A stretch of 48,024 nucleotides of DNA, taken from positions 1 to 48,024 of the forward strand of contig JAOUEV010000024.1 in the NCBI GenBank assembly GCA_029858565.1, given 5' to 3'. The DNA is from Nitrospirota bacterium (lineage in GTDB: Bacteria > Nitrospirota > UBA9217). The notes below the pieces were generated by a model, which was given only the letters and a program-made list of their open reading frames with translations, made no database searches and was not told where the DNA came from. Both the position numbers and the translations under genes were made by a program. Below, in pieces: positions 13,218 to 46,888 of the stretch. Position 1 is the first letter of the stretch. Each line of letters starts with the position of its first letter.

Positions 13218-15461
13218 TCAGGCTTCCGGTTCACTGTCCTTGATGACCCTGGCCACGACCTCTCCCAATTCCCGTATGCGGTAGGGTTTGCTTACCATAC
13301 CTTTAAAGCCGTAAGCCTGGAAATCAGCCATGATCGGGTCCTGAGAATAACCGCTCGAAACGATCGCTTTCACCTCGGGGTCCAGCTCCCGGATGCGGGC
13401 GACCGTGTCCTGGCCTCCCATGCCGCCGGGAATGGTAAGGTCCATGATCACCGCATCAAAGGGTGCGCCTGACTCGCGTGCCGCGAAGTAGCTTTCGATA
13501 GCCTCGCTTCCGTCGCTTACCGCGGTCACGGTATACCCCAGCCGTGTCAGCATATCAGCGGTCGTGTCGCGCATGTCCGCGTCATCGTCCATGATCAGCA
13601 CCCTGCCCGATCCCTGCGCGATCTTGCCGGCCCGCGAGGGCGGGGCGGCCTTGCTTTCCGAGGCCGGGAGGAACAGGGAAAATTGCGCGCCCTTGCCGAG
13701 TTCCGACGTGACCGTGATGTGACCGTCATGGCGCCGGATGATCGAAAAGGTCGCTGCCAGTCCGAGACCGCTTCCCTTCTGCTTGGTGGTGAAGTAAGGA
13801 TCGAAAATCTTCGGCAAGTGCTCTTTCGGGATGCCCGTGCCCTCATCGCTTATTGTTACCTTGACGTATCTGCCTGCTTTGAGCGGAGGTGCATCACGCT
13901 CCCCGATGTTTACGTTCTCGCCGACGATGCGGATGATCCCGCCGTCGGGCATGGCCTGGTCCGCGTTGATCAGGATATTGCTGAAGACCTGCATCATCTG
14001 TCCCTCATCGGCGTCCACGGCCCAAAGGTCAGCGGGAAGCGAAAGCTCATGCAGGACCCGGGAGCCGTGGAGCGAGAAACCCGCGGCCTCGGCTATGACC
14101 GCGGAAAGCGAGGTCGGGCGCTTCACCGGCGCACCGCCGCGGGAGAAGGTGAGCAGCTGCTGGGTAAGCTCCTGGGCGCGGATCGACGCGCTCTCGGCCT
14201 TGGTCAGCTGGGTATAGGCCCGGCTTCCCGGATCGACATCGATCATCGCCATGGAGATATTGCCCATGATGGCACCGAGGAGATTGTTGAAGTCATGGGC
14301 GATCCCGCCGGCCAGCAGTCCAAGGGATTCGAGCTTTTGGATCCGGGCGAGTTCTCCCTCCATGCGGACACGCTCGGCGATCTCGAACTGCAGATGCTGG
14401 TTCGCTTCCTGGAGTTCCGAGGTGCGCTCGTCGACCAGACATTCGAGCTGCTCCCGGTGGCGGTTCAGTTCTTCCTCGCTCCGCTTCCGGCTCGTGATGT
14501 CCCGGATGATGCTGATCATGGCAATGGGCGTGCCTTGTGCATTGTTCACCAGTGACGTGGAGAGCCAGATCGGGAAGTCATGGCCGTCCTTGTGATGGAC
14601 GAGTACCTCGCCGCTCCACCGGCCTTTTTCCCGAAGCGCCGGAAGGATCTCATCGCTGGCAAAGCCGGCGTCCACGTTCAGATGGTCTACCTGCGTGCCT
14701 GTAAGTTCGTCAGAGCTGTAACCGTATATTTCCTCAACAGCCTTGTTGGAATAAATGATATGCCCGTTCAGGTCAACGATCTGAACACCATCCATGGCCT
14801 CTTCGATGGCCGTAGAGAAAAGCTTCAGGTTCTCTTCAAAACGTTTATGCTCGGTGATATCCCGGACAGCTTCAATGCCCGCAACGATCTCACCCCGCGC
14901 GTTCCGGAGGGGTGCTGAATTGATCTCGATGTGGATGGTCCCGCGCTCACTGCTGCGGGTCTTTTCCAGGGTGTGCATCCGGCCGTCCGCACAGGAGCGG
15001 GCTACCGGACATTCGGGACAAAGGCTGGTCCGGTTGGAATAGGCCTCATAGCAGGTCTTGCCGAGATGGTCTCCCACAAGGGCCTTGTGCACCTGGTTCT
15101 GATAGAGGATGCGGTAGTTGCGGTCCTGGATGCTGATCCCGTCGGGGATCGCGGCGATGACCGCCTCGGACCGGGCTTTCTCGTCCTCCAGATTGGCAAG
15201 CGCGGTGCGGAGCCTTTCTTCCGCTCGCTTGCGGCGGGCCAGCGTACTGCTGATCACGGTGCCGAAGAGGAAAAAGGAGAGGAGGACAAATAAGCGGAAA
15301 TAAAGTTCGTGGGGAGATATTTCGGTGATAAGTGATTCGATGAACGTGCCGACGCCGAAGACCCAGGCGTCTATGGCAGCGTCCATGATCCAAACGCCGA
15401 TCGCGCCAAGAAGGGACAGCAGTACGACCTTGTCTTCATAGCGAATCTTGGGATGTTTCAT
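13218..15461 (-). CDS. Membrane-bound PAS-PAS hybrid histidine kinase
   Basis: A 747-residue hybrid sensor kinase. Two membrane segments lie near 12-33 and 53-75. PAS1 (about 98-205) carries a Cys-rich loop LCPECPVARSC, and PAS2 (about 212-325) is standard; both end in an RDIT-type PAC motif. A short coiled coil follows (about 325-375). The dimerisation domain has the phospho-acceptor H389 in GGIAHDFNN. The GHKL ATPase domain shows NADQAMPDGG, DEGTGIP and KGSGLGLA. A C-terminal receiver (about 627-747) has D674 in VIMDLTIPGG and K725 in SKP. It thus phosphorylates its own receiver; no separate response regulator is adjacent. The Cys motif in PAS1 resembles that of two small PAS-like proteins near the chemoreceptor gene. 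Signal unknown. Confidence 0.93.
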   Translation of the reverse strand: MKHPKIRYEDKVVLLSLLGAIGVWIMDAAIDAWVFGVGTFIESLITEISPHELYFRLFVLLSFFLFGTVISSTLARRKRAEERLRTALANLEDEKARSEAVIAAIPDGISIQDRNYRILYQNQVHKALVGDHLGKTCYEAYSNRTSLCPECPVARSCADGRMHTLEKTRSSERGTIHIEINSAPLRNARGEIVAGIEAVRDITEHKRFEENLKLFSTAIEEAMDGVQIVDLNGHIIYSNKAVEEIYGYSSDELTGTQVDHLNVDAGFASDEILPALREKGRWSGEVLVHHKDGHDFPIWLSTSLVNNAQGTPIAMISIIRDITSRKRSEEELNRHREQLECLVDERTSELQEANQHLQFEIAERVRMEGELARIQKLESLGLLAGGIAHDFNNLLGAIMGNISMAMIDVDPGSRAYTQLTKAESASIRAQELTQQLLTFSRGGAPVKRPTSLSAVIAEAAGFSLHGSRVLHELSLPADLWAVDADEGQMMQVFSNILINADQAMPDGGIIRIVGENVNIGERDAPPLKAGRYVKVTISDEGTGIPKEHLPKIFDPYFTTKQKGSGLGLAATFSIIRRHDGHITVTSELGKGAQFSLFLPASESKAAPPSRAGKIAQGSGRVLIMDDDADMRDTTADMLTRLGYTVTAVSDGSEAIESYFAARESGAPFDAVIMDLTIPGGMGGQDTVARIRELDPEVKAIVSSGYSQDPIMADFQAYGFKGMVSKPYRIRELGEVVARVIKDSEPEA

Positions 15462-42445: not shown

Positions 42446-42973
42446 ATGAAACGGGTATGCGCCTGGTGCAGAAAGGACCTGGGATCAGTGGAATCGGAAA
42501 ACCATTCTGCCGACACCGTGAGCCATGGGATCTGTTCCGACTGTTCGAGCATGCTCAGGCCGCAGTTCGGAATGTCCATTGACAGATATATCGATACGCT
42601 TCCGGTGCCGGTCCTGGCCACGGAAGTGTATAATGGCCGCATCATCGTCAAGGCTGCGAACGAACCGGCGTGCAAGGCCGTGGGCAAGGAGCTCCGTGAG
42701 GTTGTCCAGCATCTTGCCGGGAATGTGTTCGAGTGCGATCATGCACGCCTGCCCGAAGGGTGCGGGCGGACCATGCATTGCTCGGGCTGCGCTATCCGGC
42801 GCTCGGTCATGACGACCTTCGAGACCGGCGAGCCGCAGGGCATGGTCCCGGCGACGCTCTCACGCTTCGCTCCTGACGCGCCGACGGTCGTGGCCATGAC
42901 CATCACGACCGTAAAGATCGGGGACCTGGTCGTGCTGCGGGTCGACCGCATGGGACCGGAAGGACCGGCTTGA
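42446..42973 (+). CDS. Cys-rich PAS-like sensory protein, paralog 1
   Basis: A 175-residue protein with an N-terminal zinc-ribbon-like part (CAWC at about 5-8 and CSDC at about 30-33). A PAS-like core starts at TLPVPVLATEVYNGRIIVKAAN (about 51-72) and holds the Cys/His cluster FECDHARLPEGCGR and HCSGCAIRRS (about 94-122). Strands typical of PAS follow. It shares this build with the protein at 45589-46107; the two flank the chemoreceptor operon. No output domain is present, so it may be a stand-alone sensor or ligand-binding subunit. The bound group (heme, metal, redox disulfide) is not known. No family name is assigned. Confidence 0.75.
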   Translation: MKRVCAWCRKDLGSVESENHSADTVSHGICSDCSSMLRPQFGMSIDRYIDTLPVPVLATEVYNGRIIVKAANEPACKAVGKELREVVQHLAGNVFECDHARLPEGCGRTMHCSGCAIRRSVMTTFETGEPQGMVPATLSRFAPDAPTVVAMTITTVKIGDLVVLRVDRMGPEGPA

Positions 42974-43003
42974 AGCACACGAGGGCCATCAGGGAGCGAC
43001 AGC

Positions 43004-43522
43004 ATGCTTATCATTGTCAATGACACGCCCCGCGCAGGGTCCTATCTGCTTGCCGTGGTCCGGCTGAGCAGCAAGCCGCTCCTGATCATGGCGGCGACGG
43101 TCCTGGTCGTGCCTGCGCTGTTGTTCCTGCTCCTTGCCTCGATGGTGCAGACCGACATGCTCTTTCTCGGGAGCAGGAAGCTCTGGCTCTGGCTGGCCGG
43201 GCTCACGCCGTTCCTGCTCGCGTCGGTGATAGCGGCCACGGTCTCGGGCAGCGTATGGGGCCAGTGGCGAAAGTCGCCGCAGTTGAACGAACCGCGCACC
43301 CTGGTGTTCTCCGACGAGGGCATGGTGGTGATCGGCAAGACCTACGCGGTCAGAAGCTCCTGGTCCGATATCGCGGGCGGTGAGGTCTGGGCCGGTCAGT
43401 TGCTCTTCAGGACGGTGCAGGGAGCAGTGCATGTGCTGTCGCTCCGTTCGATCGGGAGCGGGGAACAGACGCGGAAATTGTTCGAACTGCTACGGTCCGT
43501 GCTCGGCGTCCGGTTCCGATAA
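43004..43522 (+). CDS. Membrane protein with YcxB-like C-terminal domain
   Basis: A 172-residue protein with two hydrophobic helices (about 25-47 LLIMAATVLVVPALLFLLLA and 63-80). The C-terminal domain (RTLVFSDEGMVVIGKTY to RSSWSDIAGGEVWAGQLLF and KLFELLRS) matches the YcxB-like pattern of two helices followed by a small PH-like beta domain. Function unknown. It lies 30 bp after the first Cys-PAS gene and is co-directional. Confidence 0.7.
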   Translation: MLIIVNDTPRAGSYLLAVVRLSSKPLLIMAATVLVVPALLFLLLASMVQTDMLFLGSRKLWLWLAGLTPFLLASVIAATVSGSVWGQWRKSPQLNEPRTLVFSDEGMVVIGKTYAVRSSWSDIAGGEVWAGQLLFRTVQGAVHVLSLRSIGSGEQTRKLFELLRSVLGVRFR

Positions 43523-43565
43523 GACGGTCAGGCGGCGCGCAGGTGATACAGCGCCGGGGGACTTC

Positions 43566-43940
43566 ATGGAACTAAAACGTACACCGGTCGAGGAACTGGT
43601 CTTCACGGTCGCCGGATTCGAGGCGATCATGGGCGAAGCTGGCTTCGCCCTCGGCCAGTCCGATCCCCAGGCCATACGCGACCTGTCCTATCGTGCCCGC
43701 TATTTGCGGATGAGCAGCGGCCCGGAGCCCCGCTTGTACGCCTATCTGGAATACTATCTCGCGGCCCGCGCGTTCAGCCTGAAGATCAGTCCCGCGCCGG
43801 AGGACGGAAATGAACCCTACCGTTTTCTGGTGAAGAACCACAAGGGTAGCCTGAAGGAGCTGCTGGAAGGGTATTTCGCAGCGGTCCGGAACGGCGCCCT
43901 CCATCACCACGCGGGCCCTTCGGGTCCCCGGGCACGATGA
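43566..43940 (+). CDS. Hypothetical cytosolic protein
   Basis: A 124-residue protein from ATG 43566, with GGGGGA just upstream; a longer frame from 43380 overlaps the YcxB-like gene and is rejected. It contains [19 protein letters not shown] and [20 protein letters not shown], and a His-rich tail (HHHAGPSGP). It looks alpha-helical. I recognise no family. It sits 43 bp after the YcxB-like gene. Its stop codon overlaps the ATG of a short signal-peptide ORF. Confidence 0.65.
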
Positions 43941-44107
43941 TGAACCGGACCATCAGCGCAGTCCTGGCGTCCATTCTCTTCTTTGCCGCGCCCGCCGGCC
44001 CGTTCAGGGAGCGATCGGGACGTCGACGACTAATTGCGGCGTCGGAAGGAGCTTTCCTATGGCAAACGGCAAGGCATTCCAGGTGTTCCGCGAGAGCATC
44101 AGCCTGA
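43937..44107 (+). pseudogene. Short signal-peptide ORF overlapping the chemoreceptor start
   Basis: An ATG at 43937 overlaps the stop of the upstream gene (ATGA). The 56-residue product starts [20 protein letters not shown], a good Sec signal peptide, then continues as Arg-rich, non-natural sequence and ends 49 bp inside the chemoreceptor gene. It may be the 5' end of a once longer secreted protein gene that was cut when the chemoreceptor gene arrived. It may also be chance. Confidence 0.3.
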
Positions 44108-45567
44108 AGTTGCTGGCTATCGTGGCCGCTGTCTGCGCGGTCGGCATCCTCGGTTCGAGCTTCGCGATCACGGGCAAGACAAAGGCGGAGCTGCGGGCGT
44201 CCCTGACCTCGAAGGGGCAGGGGTTTGCCGCGTTCCTTGCCGAGGTCATGAAGGAACCGCTGCGCGCTGATGATCGGCAGAAGCTCGATATGATCGCGCG
44301 CCGGACCGTGCAGGACCGCGACGTGCTGTTCGCCGGGGTCCAGGACCGGAACAATGCGTTCATGACATCGGCCGATGCGTCCATCGGCATGCTGCCCGAG
44401 GAGATCCGCTCCCGCGTGTCCGCGCTTTCGCGGGACGGCTCCCTGCAGGCCACTGTTGATGCGCTGCAGGCGCAGGACGGGGTGATCATGCTGAAAGCGC
44501 CGTTGGAACACGATGGCCAGCGGATCGGGACCATCGTGATCGGCATGTCCGAAGCGGCCATGCGTTCACGGATCAGCGCGACCATCCTCTTTGTCTTTGT
44601 CGTGAACATGATCACCGGCGCCTTCGTCGGCGGGGCGATCTTCTTCGCATCCCGGCGCCTCATCGTGCGGCCCATCACCGCGCTGACCGGCGTTGCGGAG
44701 CGGATCGCCCGGGGAGATCTTACCGTGACCATCAGCGCGGAAAGCGAGGATGAGACGGGGAAATTGACCGACGTCATGGGAGTCATGGCGGACCGGATCG
44801 ACGACGTGGTCTCCGACGTGAAGAGCACGGCTCAGGTCCTCGCGTCGGAGAGCAGCCAGATCGCCGAGAGCGCGGCGCAGATGAGCCAGGGCGCGACAAC
44901 GCAGGCGGCATCGGCGGAGGAAGCCTCGGCCTCGATCGAGCAGATGGCGGCCACGATCAGGCAGAACGCGGAGAATTCCCGGGAGACGGAGAAGATCGCG
45001 GCCAAGGCCGCGGAAGACGCTTCGGACGGCCGCAGGTCGGTCTCCAACGCGGTCCTTGCCATGCGGCAGATCGCCGAAAAGATCACGGTCATTGAGGAGA
45101 TCGCGCGGCAGACGAACCTTCTCGCCCTGAACGCGGCGATCGAGGCGGCCCGCGCCGGCGACCTGGGCAAGGGGTTCGCCGTGGTCGCCGCCGAGGTCCG
45201 CAAACTGGCCGAGCGGAGCCGCATGGCGGCAGCGGAGATCGGGGAAATATCAACGACCAGTGTTGAGGTGGCGGAGATGGCCGGAGAGATGCTGGACAAG
45301 CTCGTACCGGACATCCAGCGGACCGCGGACATGGTGCAGGAGATCAGCGCAGCCTGCGGGGAGCAGGCGACGGGTGTGGACCAGATCAGCGAATCAATCC
45401 TGCAGCTGAACGAGGTGGTGCAGCAGAACGCCGGGGCGGCCGAGGAGCTGTCGTCGTCGTCCGAGGAACTTGCGGCACAGGCGGATCAGCTGCGGCAGGC
45501 GATCTCCTACTTCATCGTCAAAGGAAGTACAGCGCCCGGGGTGGCCAAACCGGAGCCGCGGACCTGA
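44059..45567 (+). CDS. Methyl-accepting chemotaxis protein
   Basis: A 502-residue transmembrane chemoreceptor. TM1 is about 16-37, a periplasmic sensor of roughly 135 residues follows, TM2 is about 174-197, HAMP about 198-252 ([19 protein letters not shown]), and the cytoplasmic signalling coiled coil about 255-490. The conserved hairpin tip is [18 protein letters not shown] and [17 protein letters not shown] (about 351-388), the CheA/CheW contact region. The periplasmic domain contains [20 protein letters not shown], which resembles the end of a small Cache-type fold. There is no C-terminal CheR/CheB-docking pentapeptide. No che genes are in the window. It is preceded by GGAAGGAG. Its ligand is unknown. 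Confidence 0.95.
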
Positions 45568-45588
45568 AGGTCTGACAGGAGCACGGGG

Positions 45589-46107
45589 ATGGACGTTCAA
45601 GACGACGAAAAACAGAGCTGCTCATGGTGCGGTGAGGACCTGGACACGATCGAGATCGGCATCGATATCGATCAGAGGTTCAGCCAGGGGATCTGCAAGA
45701 GGTGTATCGACCACTTCCTCTTCCAGAAAGGCGTTCCCCTGCGGCAGTATCTTGACAGCCTTCCCTGGCCGGTGCTGGTGGTGGACGGTGACGCGGTCGT
45801 GCAAATGGCGAACGCTCAGGCGCGCGACATGCTCGGCAAGAAGGACTTTGAAACGGAAGAGCAAACAAGCGGCTTGGTATTCGAATGCGCTCATGCCCGA
45901 TTGCCCGGCGGATGCGGGCGGTCCGTGCATTGCTCGGGGTGCACCATCAGGATGTCGATCAAGAGGACCTGGGAGACCGGCGAACCGCTGAACAAGGTCC
46001 CGGCCACACTGACCACCTCGGACCCTGAGGCGCCCGCGAAAGTGGATTTGCTGATCACGACCTACAAGGCGGGAGACATGGTGATGTTGCGGGTGGACCG
46101 GCTCTGA
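45589..46107 (+). CDS. Cys-rich PAS-like sensory protein, paralog 2
   Basis: A 172-residue paralog of the protein at 42446-42973. It has the same N-terminal ribbon (CSWCGEDL and CKRC), the same PAS-like core start (LPWPVLVVDGDAVVQMANAQA) and the same cluster FECAHARLPGGCGR and HCSGCTIRMS. The conserved end is PEAPAKVDLLITTYKAGD and MVMLRVDRL. It lies 21 bp after the chemoreceptor gene and is probably co-transcribed with it, which suggests a link to signalling. The N-terminal acidic stretch differs from paralog 1. Confidence 0.75.
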   Translation: MDVQDDEKQSCSWCGEDLDTIEIGIDIDQRFSQGICKRCIDHFLFQKGVPLRQYLDSLPWPVLVVDGDAVVQMANAQARDMLGKKDFETEEQTSGLVFECAHARLPGGCGRSVHCSGCTIRMSIKRTWETGEPLNKVPATLTTSDPEAPAKVDLLITTYKAGDMVMLRVDRL

Positions 46108-46168
46108 TGAGCCGGCGCCGCATGTCCGGTCTGTCTTTTTGAACAGCACGGGAAAGGAACGCGTGACC

Positions 46169-46888
46169 ATGGAGCGATTCTCAAAGCAGGACGTCCTGAT
46201 GACCGCGGCCGGGAGCGGCGACGCGACGAACGCGGACCTGTCGGGGATCAACCTGAGCAACACCGAACTCGTCGGCGTCCGCTTCAACGGCTCGAACCTT
46301 TCGGGCGCTAACCTGTCCGGCGCCAACCTGAGCGGAGCGACCTTCCTGAACTGCGCGCTTTCCGGCATCAATCTGGGAAGCGCCAACTGCACGGGAGCGT
46401 CCTTCCGCGGCGCAGATCTCACCAAGGCGGACCTCACCTTTTCCGTGCTGACCGGAGCCGACCTCACCGCGGCGGTCCTGCGGAACGCGGATATGACGAA
46501 CGCCCGGACAACGGCCGCCTGCTTCGAACAGGCCGATCTGACCGAGGCGAACCTGCAGATGACCGACGGCGGCATGACACGGTTCCGCGGAGCGCGGATG
46601 GCGCGGGCCAACTTTCGCGGCGCCAGCATGATCGCCGCGGACCTTTCAGCGTGCGACCTGAGCCGGGCAAAACTGTACGGCACTGACCTTTCCGCGGCGA
46701 ACCTGAGGGGAGCAACGCTCGAAGGCGCCGACATCCTGGACGCCACTTTCATCGCGGCGGACCTCACGGAGGTCAATCTGATCAGCGCCCGGGTCCGGCG
46801 CGCAGACATGACGCGCGCGCAGCTCAGCGGCCTCAAGTACGACGACAGTCTGCAGGAAACGATCGCGCGGTACGACAGAAAAAAATGA
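46169..46888 (+). CDS. Pentapeptide-repeat protein
   Basis: A 239-residue protein. From about residue 20 to 230 it consists of A(D/N)LxG-type pentapeptides, for example ANLSGANLSGATF, ADLTKADLTFSVL and ANLRGATLEGADI, which fold into a right-handed four-sided beta helix. Related proteins include DNA mimics that protect gyrase (Qnr, MfpA), but the repeat alone does not tell function. ATG 46169 is chosen with AAGGA upstream; an in-frame TTG 30 bp earlier is rejected. There is no signal peptide. It follows the second Cys-PAS gene by 61 bp. The 213-bp gap after it shows no gene. Confidence 0.88.
   Translation: MERFSKQDVLMTAAGSGDATNADLSGINLSNTELVGVRFNGSNLSGANLSGANLSGATFLNCALSGINLGSANCTGASFRGADLTKADLTFSVLTGADLTAAVLRNADMTNARTTAACFEQADLTEANLQMTDGGMTRFRGARMARANFRGASMIAADLSACDLSRAKLYGTDLSAANLRGATLEGADILDATFIAADLTEVNLISARVRRADMTRAQLSGLKYDDSLQETIARYDRKK

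Follow-up and report, generated by a model that had tools for sequence, protein, structure and literature searches.

Do the soluble, cysteine-rich PAS proteins encoded beside a chemoreceptor in a Nitrospirota genome feed a signal into that receptor, or do they act as sensors in their own right? The question concerns positions 42446-46107 of the window, the whole stretch of 48,024 nucleotides that was analysed. An initial annotation had described two paralogous Cys-PAS proteins, here called a and b, flanking a chemoreceptor, and had interpreted them as soluble sensors belonging to a receptor-centered sensory island. The observation was partly confirmed and the interpretation partly supported: the sensor proteins stand as a family, whereas the island does not recur. 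The features are collected in Table 1.

Table 1. Features of the Cys-PAS locus in the window
Feature	Position	Strand	Remarks
Cys-PAS protein a, stand-alone	42446..42973	+	175 aa; ATG start
Ribbon of a, N-terminal, residues 1-40	42446..42565	+	C5xxC8...C30xxC33; invariant in 17 homologs
Cys4 cluster, PAS core of a	42734..42790	+	C97-x8-C106-x5-C112-x2-C115; 17 homologs
Predicted membrane protein	43004..43522	+	172 aa; 30 bp downstream of a
Small cytosolic protein	43566..43940	+	124 aa; no Pfam family
Methyl-accepting chemotaxis protein (MCP)	44059..45567	+	HAMP 9.1e-10, MCPsignal 1.1e-33; periplasmic domain, sCache_3_2 sub-threshold
Cys-PAS protein b, stand-alone	45589..46107	+	172 aa; 21 bp downstream of MCP
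Cys4 cluster, PAS core of b	45886..45942	+	C100-x8-C109-x5-C115-x2-C118
Pentapeptide-repeat protein	46139..46888	+	downstream of b; likelier ATG start 46169

Two paralogs and their eight-cysteine family

Both open reading frames were found at the positions given in Table 1, and their products are paralogs, with 47% identity over 168 residues (pairwise E 7e-53). As the initial annotation had described, each has a ribbon-like CxWC...CxxC start, the motifs HARLP[EG]GCGR and HCSGC[AT]IR, and a PAS fold. The PAS-core cluster follows the pattern C-x8-GC-x5-C-x2-C in both. Nor was any output domain matched by Pfam search in either protein (172-175 aa). A third stand-alone copy lies on another contig of the same genome, adjoining cytochrome c-like and nitroreductase-like genes.

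Seventeen stand-alone homologs were collected from six phyla, namely Nitrospirota, Armatimonadota, Thermodesulfobacteriota (including Geobacter), Planctomycetota, Fidelibacterota and Elusimicrobiota. All eight cysteines (C5, C8, C30 and C33; C97, C106, C112 and C115) are invariant in these homologs, and few other positions are. Judged from the aligned sequences, this pattern of conservation is far beyond chance, and its retention in 17 homologs of six phyla indicates a genuine protein family. The family has no Pfam model of its own; Pfam returns generic PAS matches and a weak PknG rubredoxin match on the ribbon, the latter (PknG_rubred) in two of 12 family members. No description of the family was found in open-licence literature, although absence there is weak evidence, and a search of plasmids for the Cys-PAS protein gave no match. 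In genus g6, both of the genomes examined (L049 and L051) have a hemB-like gene adjoining the stand-alone gene.

Membership of the PAS superfamily is indicated by both sequence and predicted structure. PAS models match up to six of 12 family members, with PAS_4 above the Pfam cut-off in b. The AlphaFold model of b (pLDDT 70.2, pTM 0.66) was matched by Foldseek to PYP (best E 1.7e-6), and also to the PAS domains of FixL, NifL and MmoS. The model of a is weaker (pLDDT 67.6, pTM 0.45) and gave no Foldseek match below 0.001. In a search of PDB sequences, a alone matched nothing and the family profile gave only weak PAS matches. The Cys4 cluster of the PAS core is placed just ahead of the F-alpha helix; confidence in the model of a is lowest around this cysteine loop, and thus no metal geometry is claimed.

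Cys4-PAS and ribbon modules in other architectures

Weaker, second-tier matches to the family profile in the phylum place the Cys4-PAS within HisKA histidine kinases, GGDEF cyclases and one hybrid kinase. These input domains have the same PAS and the pattern C...GCG...C-x2-C-x-[IVL]R, but are fused to an output domain and lack the N-terminal ribbon. The four cysteines are present in 23 of the 23 second-tier loci examined, a count that is partly circular because the profile rewards these cysteines. Because kinases and cyclases sense their signal at the input position, the simplest reading of the Cys4-PAS is that of a sensor, and the view of the soluble Cys-PAS proteins as a sensor family is supported.

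A further second-tier architecture consists of proteins of ~200 aa in which a C-terminal CKKIR...HGICPEC ribbon comes after the PAS. These resemble a and b in having both module types and no output domain, but the order is opposite and their ribbon is longer by a KKIRDD..YW insert. The family ribbon shares with this type two CxxC knuckles and the conserved [ST]HGIC..C second knuckle; in a single hhalign comparison the two ribbons aligned with a probability of 97.3% (E 1.7e-11), the KKIRDD..YW..LE.Y insert between the knuckles being absent from the family ribbon and represented by an alignment gap of ~8 residues. Given this homology and the existence of PAS proteins with a C-terminal ribbon, the Cys-PAS family joins two widespread modules in reversed order. 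The C-terminal ribbon, CKKIRDD..YW..LE.Y...[ST]HGICPEC, recurs in the C-terminal ~50 aa of PAS proteins at three other loci (L054, L061 and L065). It is also found at G000:C134:22405-22545 and G000:C27:28226-28372, with no Pfam model reported over the ribbon.

How might such proteins work? It is judged somewhat more probable than not that they are sparse, multi-phylum cytosolic sensors that combine a Cys4 ribbon with a metal-binding (Zn or Fe-S) Cys4-PAS and act in trans, a reading in which we infer both cofactor and partner. The ribbon would bind a structural or rubredoxin-like metal and the PAS Cys4 site would bind zinc or an Fe-S cluster. Loading or oxidation of the PAS site may then follow redox state, oxygen or NO, or metal supply, and the resulting conformational change would be relayed in trans to a partner. 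Arguments for this mechanism are the eight invariant cysteines, the PAS fold, the use of the Cys4-PAS as a kinase and cyclase input, and the ribbon homology, and a role in redox, metal or NO sensing, as the initial annotation had suggested, is plausible. Against it, the neighbourhoods hold no consistent partner, the confidence of the AlphaFold models is modest (pLDDT 67.6 and 70.2) and the cysteines could form purely structural zinc sites.

That last objection amounts to an explanation of its own, in which both Cys4 sites hold tight zinc that stabilises a small adaptor and no cofactor is sensed, and the PAS may bind a small ligand or simply dimerise. CxxC...CxxC ribbons commonly hold structural zinc, and the PAS of WalK is known to bind zinc, though the zinc is regulatory there (PMC6624279). 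The conservation of the PAS Cys4 in kinase and cyclase input domains fits sensing better than pure structure, and purely structural zinc is regarded as rather unlikely.

For in-trans sensing, each proposed step has a precedent in a known system. NreB likewise has four cysteines in a PAS, in the spacing C-x2-C-x11-C-x2-C; the spacing in the Cys-PAS proteins (x8, x5, x2) differs from this, which counts against the mechanism proposed here. The Cys-PAS proteins also differ from NreB in lacking a kinase domain and in carrying the additional ribbon. NreB is a [4Fe-4S] PAS sensor kinase on which NreA, a separate soluble sensor, acts (PMC4601167, PMC8534201, PMC9918477). In WalK, a zinc site in the PAS serves as a regulatory input, as the putative site here might, but that site lies in a membrane kinase and is built from four residues, H271 among them, whereas here there are four cysteines in a stand-alone protein (PMC6624279). 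MopJ is a stand-alone, single-domain PAS protein that binds DivJ (PMC4432633). MopJ-like proteins, compared here by description, resemble a and b in lacking an output domain, and MopJ acts in trans on its partner kinase; neither a ribbon nor a cysteine cluster is claimed for it. Signal transfer from the Cys-PAS proteins would accordingly be pictured as that of NreA on NreB or MopJ on DivJ.

As far as their sequences tell, the Cys-PAS proteins are uncharacterised eight-cysteine sensors of moderate interest. The family is small and soluble and keeps its eight cysteines across six phyla, which makes its cofactor directly testable, and working out a stand-alone member would reveal the signal of many multidomain Cys4-PAS kinases and cyclases.

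Is the chemoreceptor a conserved partner?

The product of 44059-45567 is a true MCP, as had been annotated, but the Cys-PAS proteins do not strictly flank it: a is separated from the receptor by two genes. The first of these, at 43004, had been called YcxB-like, an identity that Pfam does not support, and no predicted membrane protein of this type was found beside homologs of a in two relatives. The genes across 42446-46107 lie on one strand with gaps of 30, 43, 118 and 21 bp. Because of these short gaps, the common strand and the lack of a convincing terminator, co-transcription is likely, and in this genome one Cys-PAS copy probably shares a transcript with a chemoreceptor.

The island reading takes this arrangement further: soluble a and b would bind the cytoplasmic part of the MCP and feed a redox, metal or NO signal into chemotaxis. 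The 21 bp between MCP and b, on the same strand and with no convincing terminator between them, speaks for it, as does one other Nitrospirota genome (L062:1752-4790) in which an MCP ends 12 bp before a second-tier Cys4-PAS-PAS-GGDEF gene. The claimed linkage is not repeated, however, and the genomic part of the refuting condition named in the initial annotation thus speaks against the island. When flanking reading frames and genome-wide MCP matches were examined, none of the 15 other stand-alone loci had an MCP nearby; in two of these, an MCP is on the same contig at ~74 and ~90 kb. Four carriers of the family, from Desulfobulbaceae, Desulfomonile, Planctomycetota and Fidelibacterota, gave no MCP match at all, although these are drafts of unstated completeness. 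Furthermore, the nearest homologs of the receptor, compared over the sensor part, occur in two relatives (G041 and G015, 66% and 47% identity) on contigs with no Cys-PAS gene.

This genome has ~24 MCP genes, and one such contact among 16 loci is about as much as chance would produce. A simple calculation puts the probability that one or more of the 16 lie within 1 kb of an MCP at P 0.14, and that one or more are adjacent and codirectional at P 0.04; for contact of the L062 kind between an MCP and a second-tier gene, 0.43 cases are expected. With none of 15 other loci and probabilities at this level, the adjacency seen here is real but is not a repeated association. The MCP was thus rejected as a conserved partner of the family: by comparison of the loci, the chemoreceptor is a local neighbour. 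The island reading is considered very unlikely, and the absence of MCPs from the other loci and from the four carriers favours in-trans sensing in which the receptor is not a conserved partner. A still more remote proposal is that the proteins are undescribed free-standing eight-cysteine redox sensors (rubredoxin-like ribbon plus Fe-S PAS) acting in trans, with one copy recruited in this bacterium into the operon of a chemoreceptor, which would then be modulated by the redox or metal state of the cytosol. What was surprising in the finding, the link to the receptor, fails as a general rule, and as a chemoreceptor story the locus is ordinary. In L062, a second MCP lies convergent and just downstream of the Cys4-PAS-PAS-GGDEF gene.

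Among the neighbours at this locus, only the 43566 small protein recurs next to a Cys-PAS gene. Its homologs directly follow the Cys-PAS gene in two genomes of one genus (G005 and G041), with 52-53% identity, which makes it, on thin evidence, the leading candidate for a conserved partner. Protein a and the small protein could accordingly form a functional pair to which the receptor and b were added in this lineage. This recurrence is confined to a single genus; in a third genome of that genus (G015) the genes sit on separate contigs, and a further relative encodes the small protein but lacks a stand-alone Cys-PAS. The small protein also belongs to no known family, and such a pair is considered unlikely.

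A cysteine loop in a hybrid kinase of the window

The initial annotation had also related a loop, LCPECPVARSC, in PAS1 of the hybrid kinase at 13218-15461 to the Cys-PAS cluster. The loop is present, but the family profile lends the relationship no support: it does not recognise PAS1, and its best score, -2.6 bits, falls on a different PAS. PAS1 was thus rejected as a relative of the Cys-PAS proteins, the resemblance being a C..CxxC arrangement seen by eye at a similar place. A PAS-GGDEF protein of the same genome (L101:760-2391, G000:C14) has a three-cysteine PAS loop, CYKTLEGKNEVCDGCVIRK, that resembles the loop of the hybrid kinase, and such loops therefore probably represent a wider, loose class.
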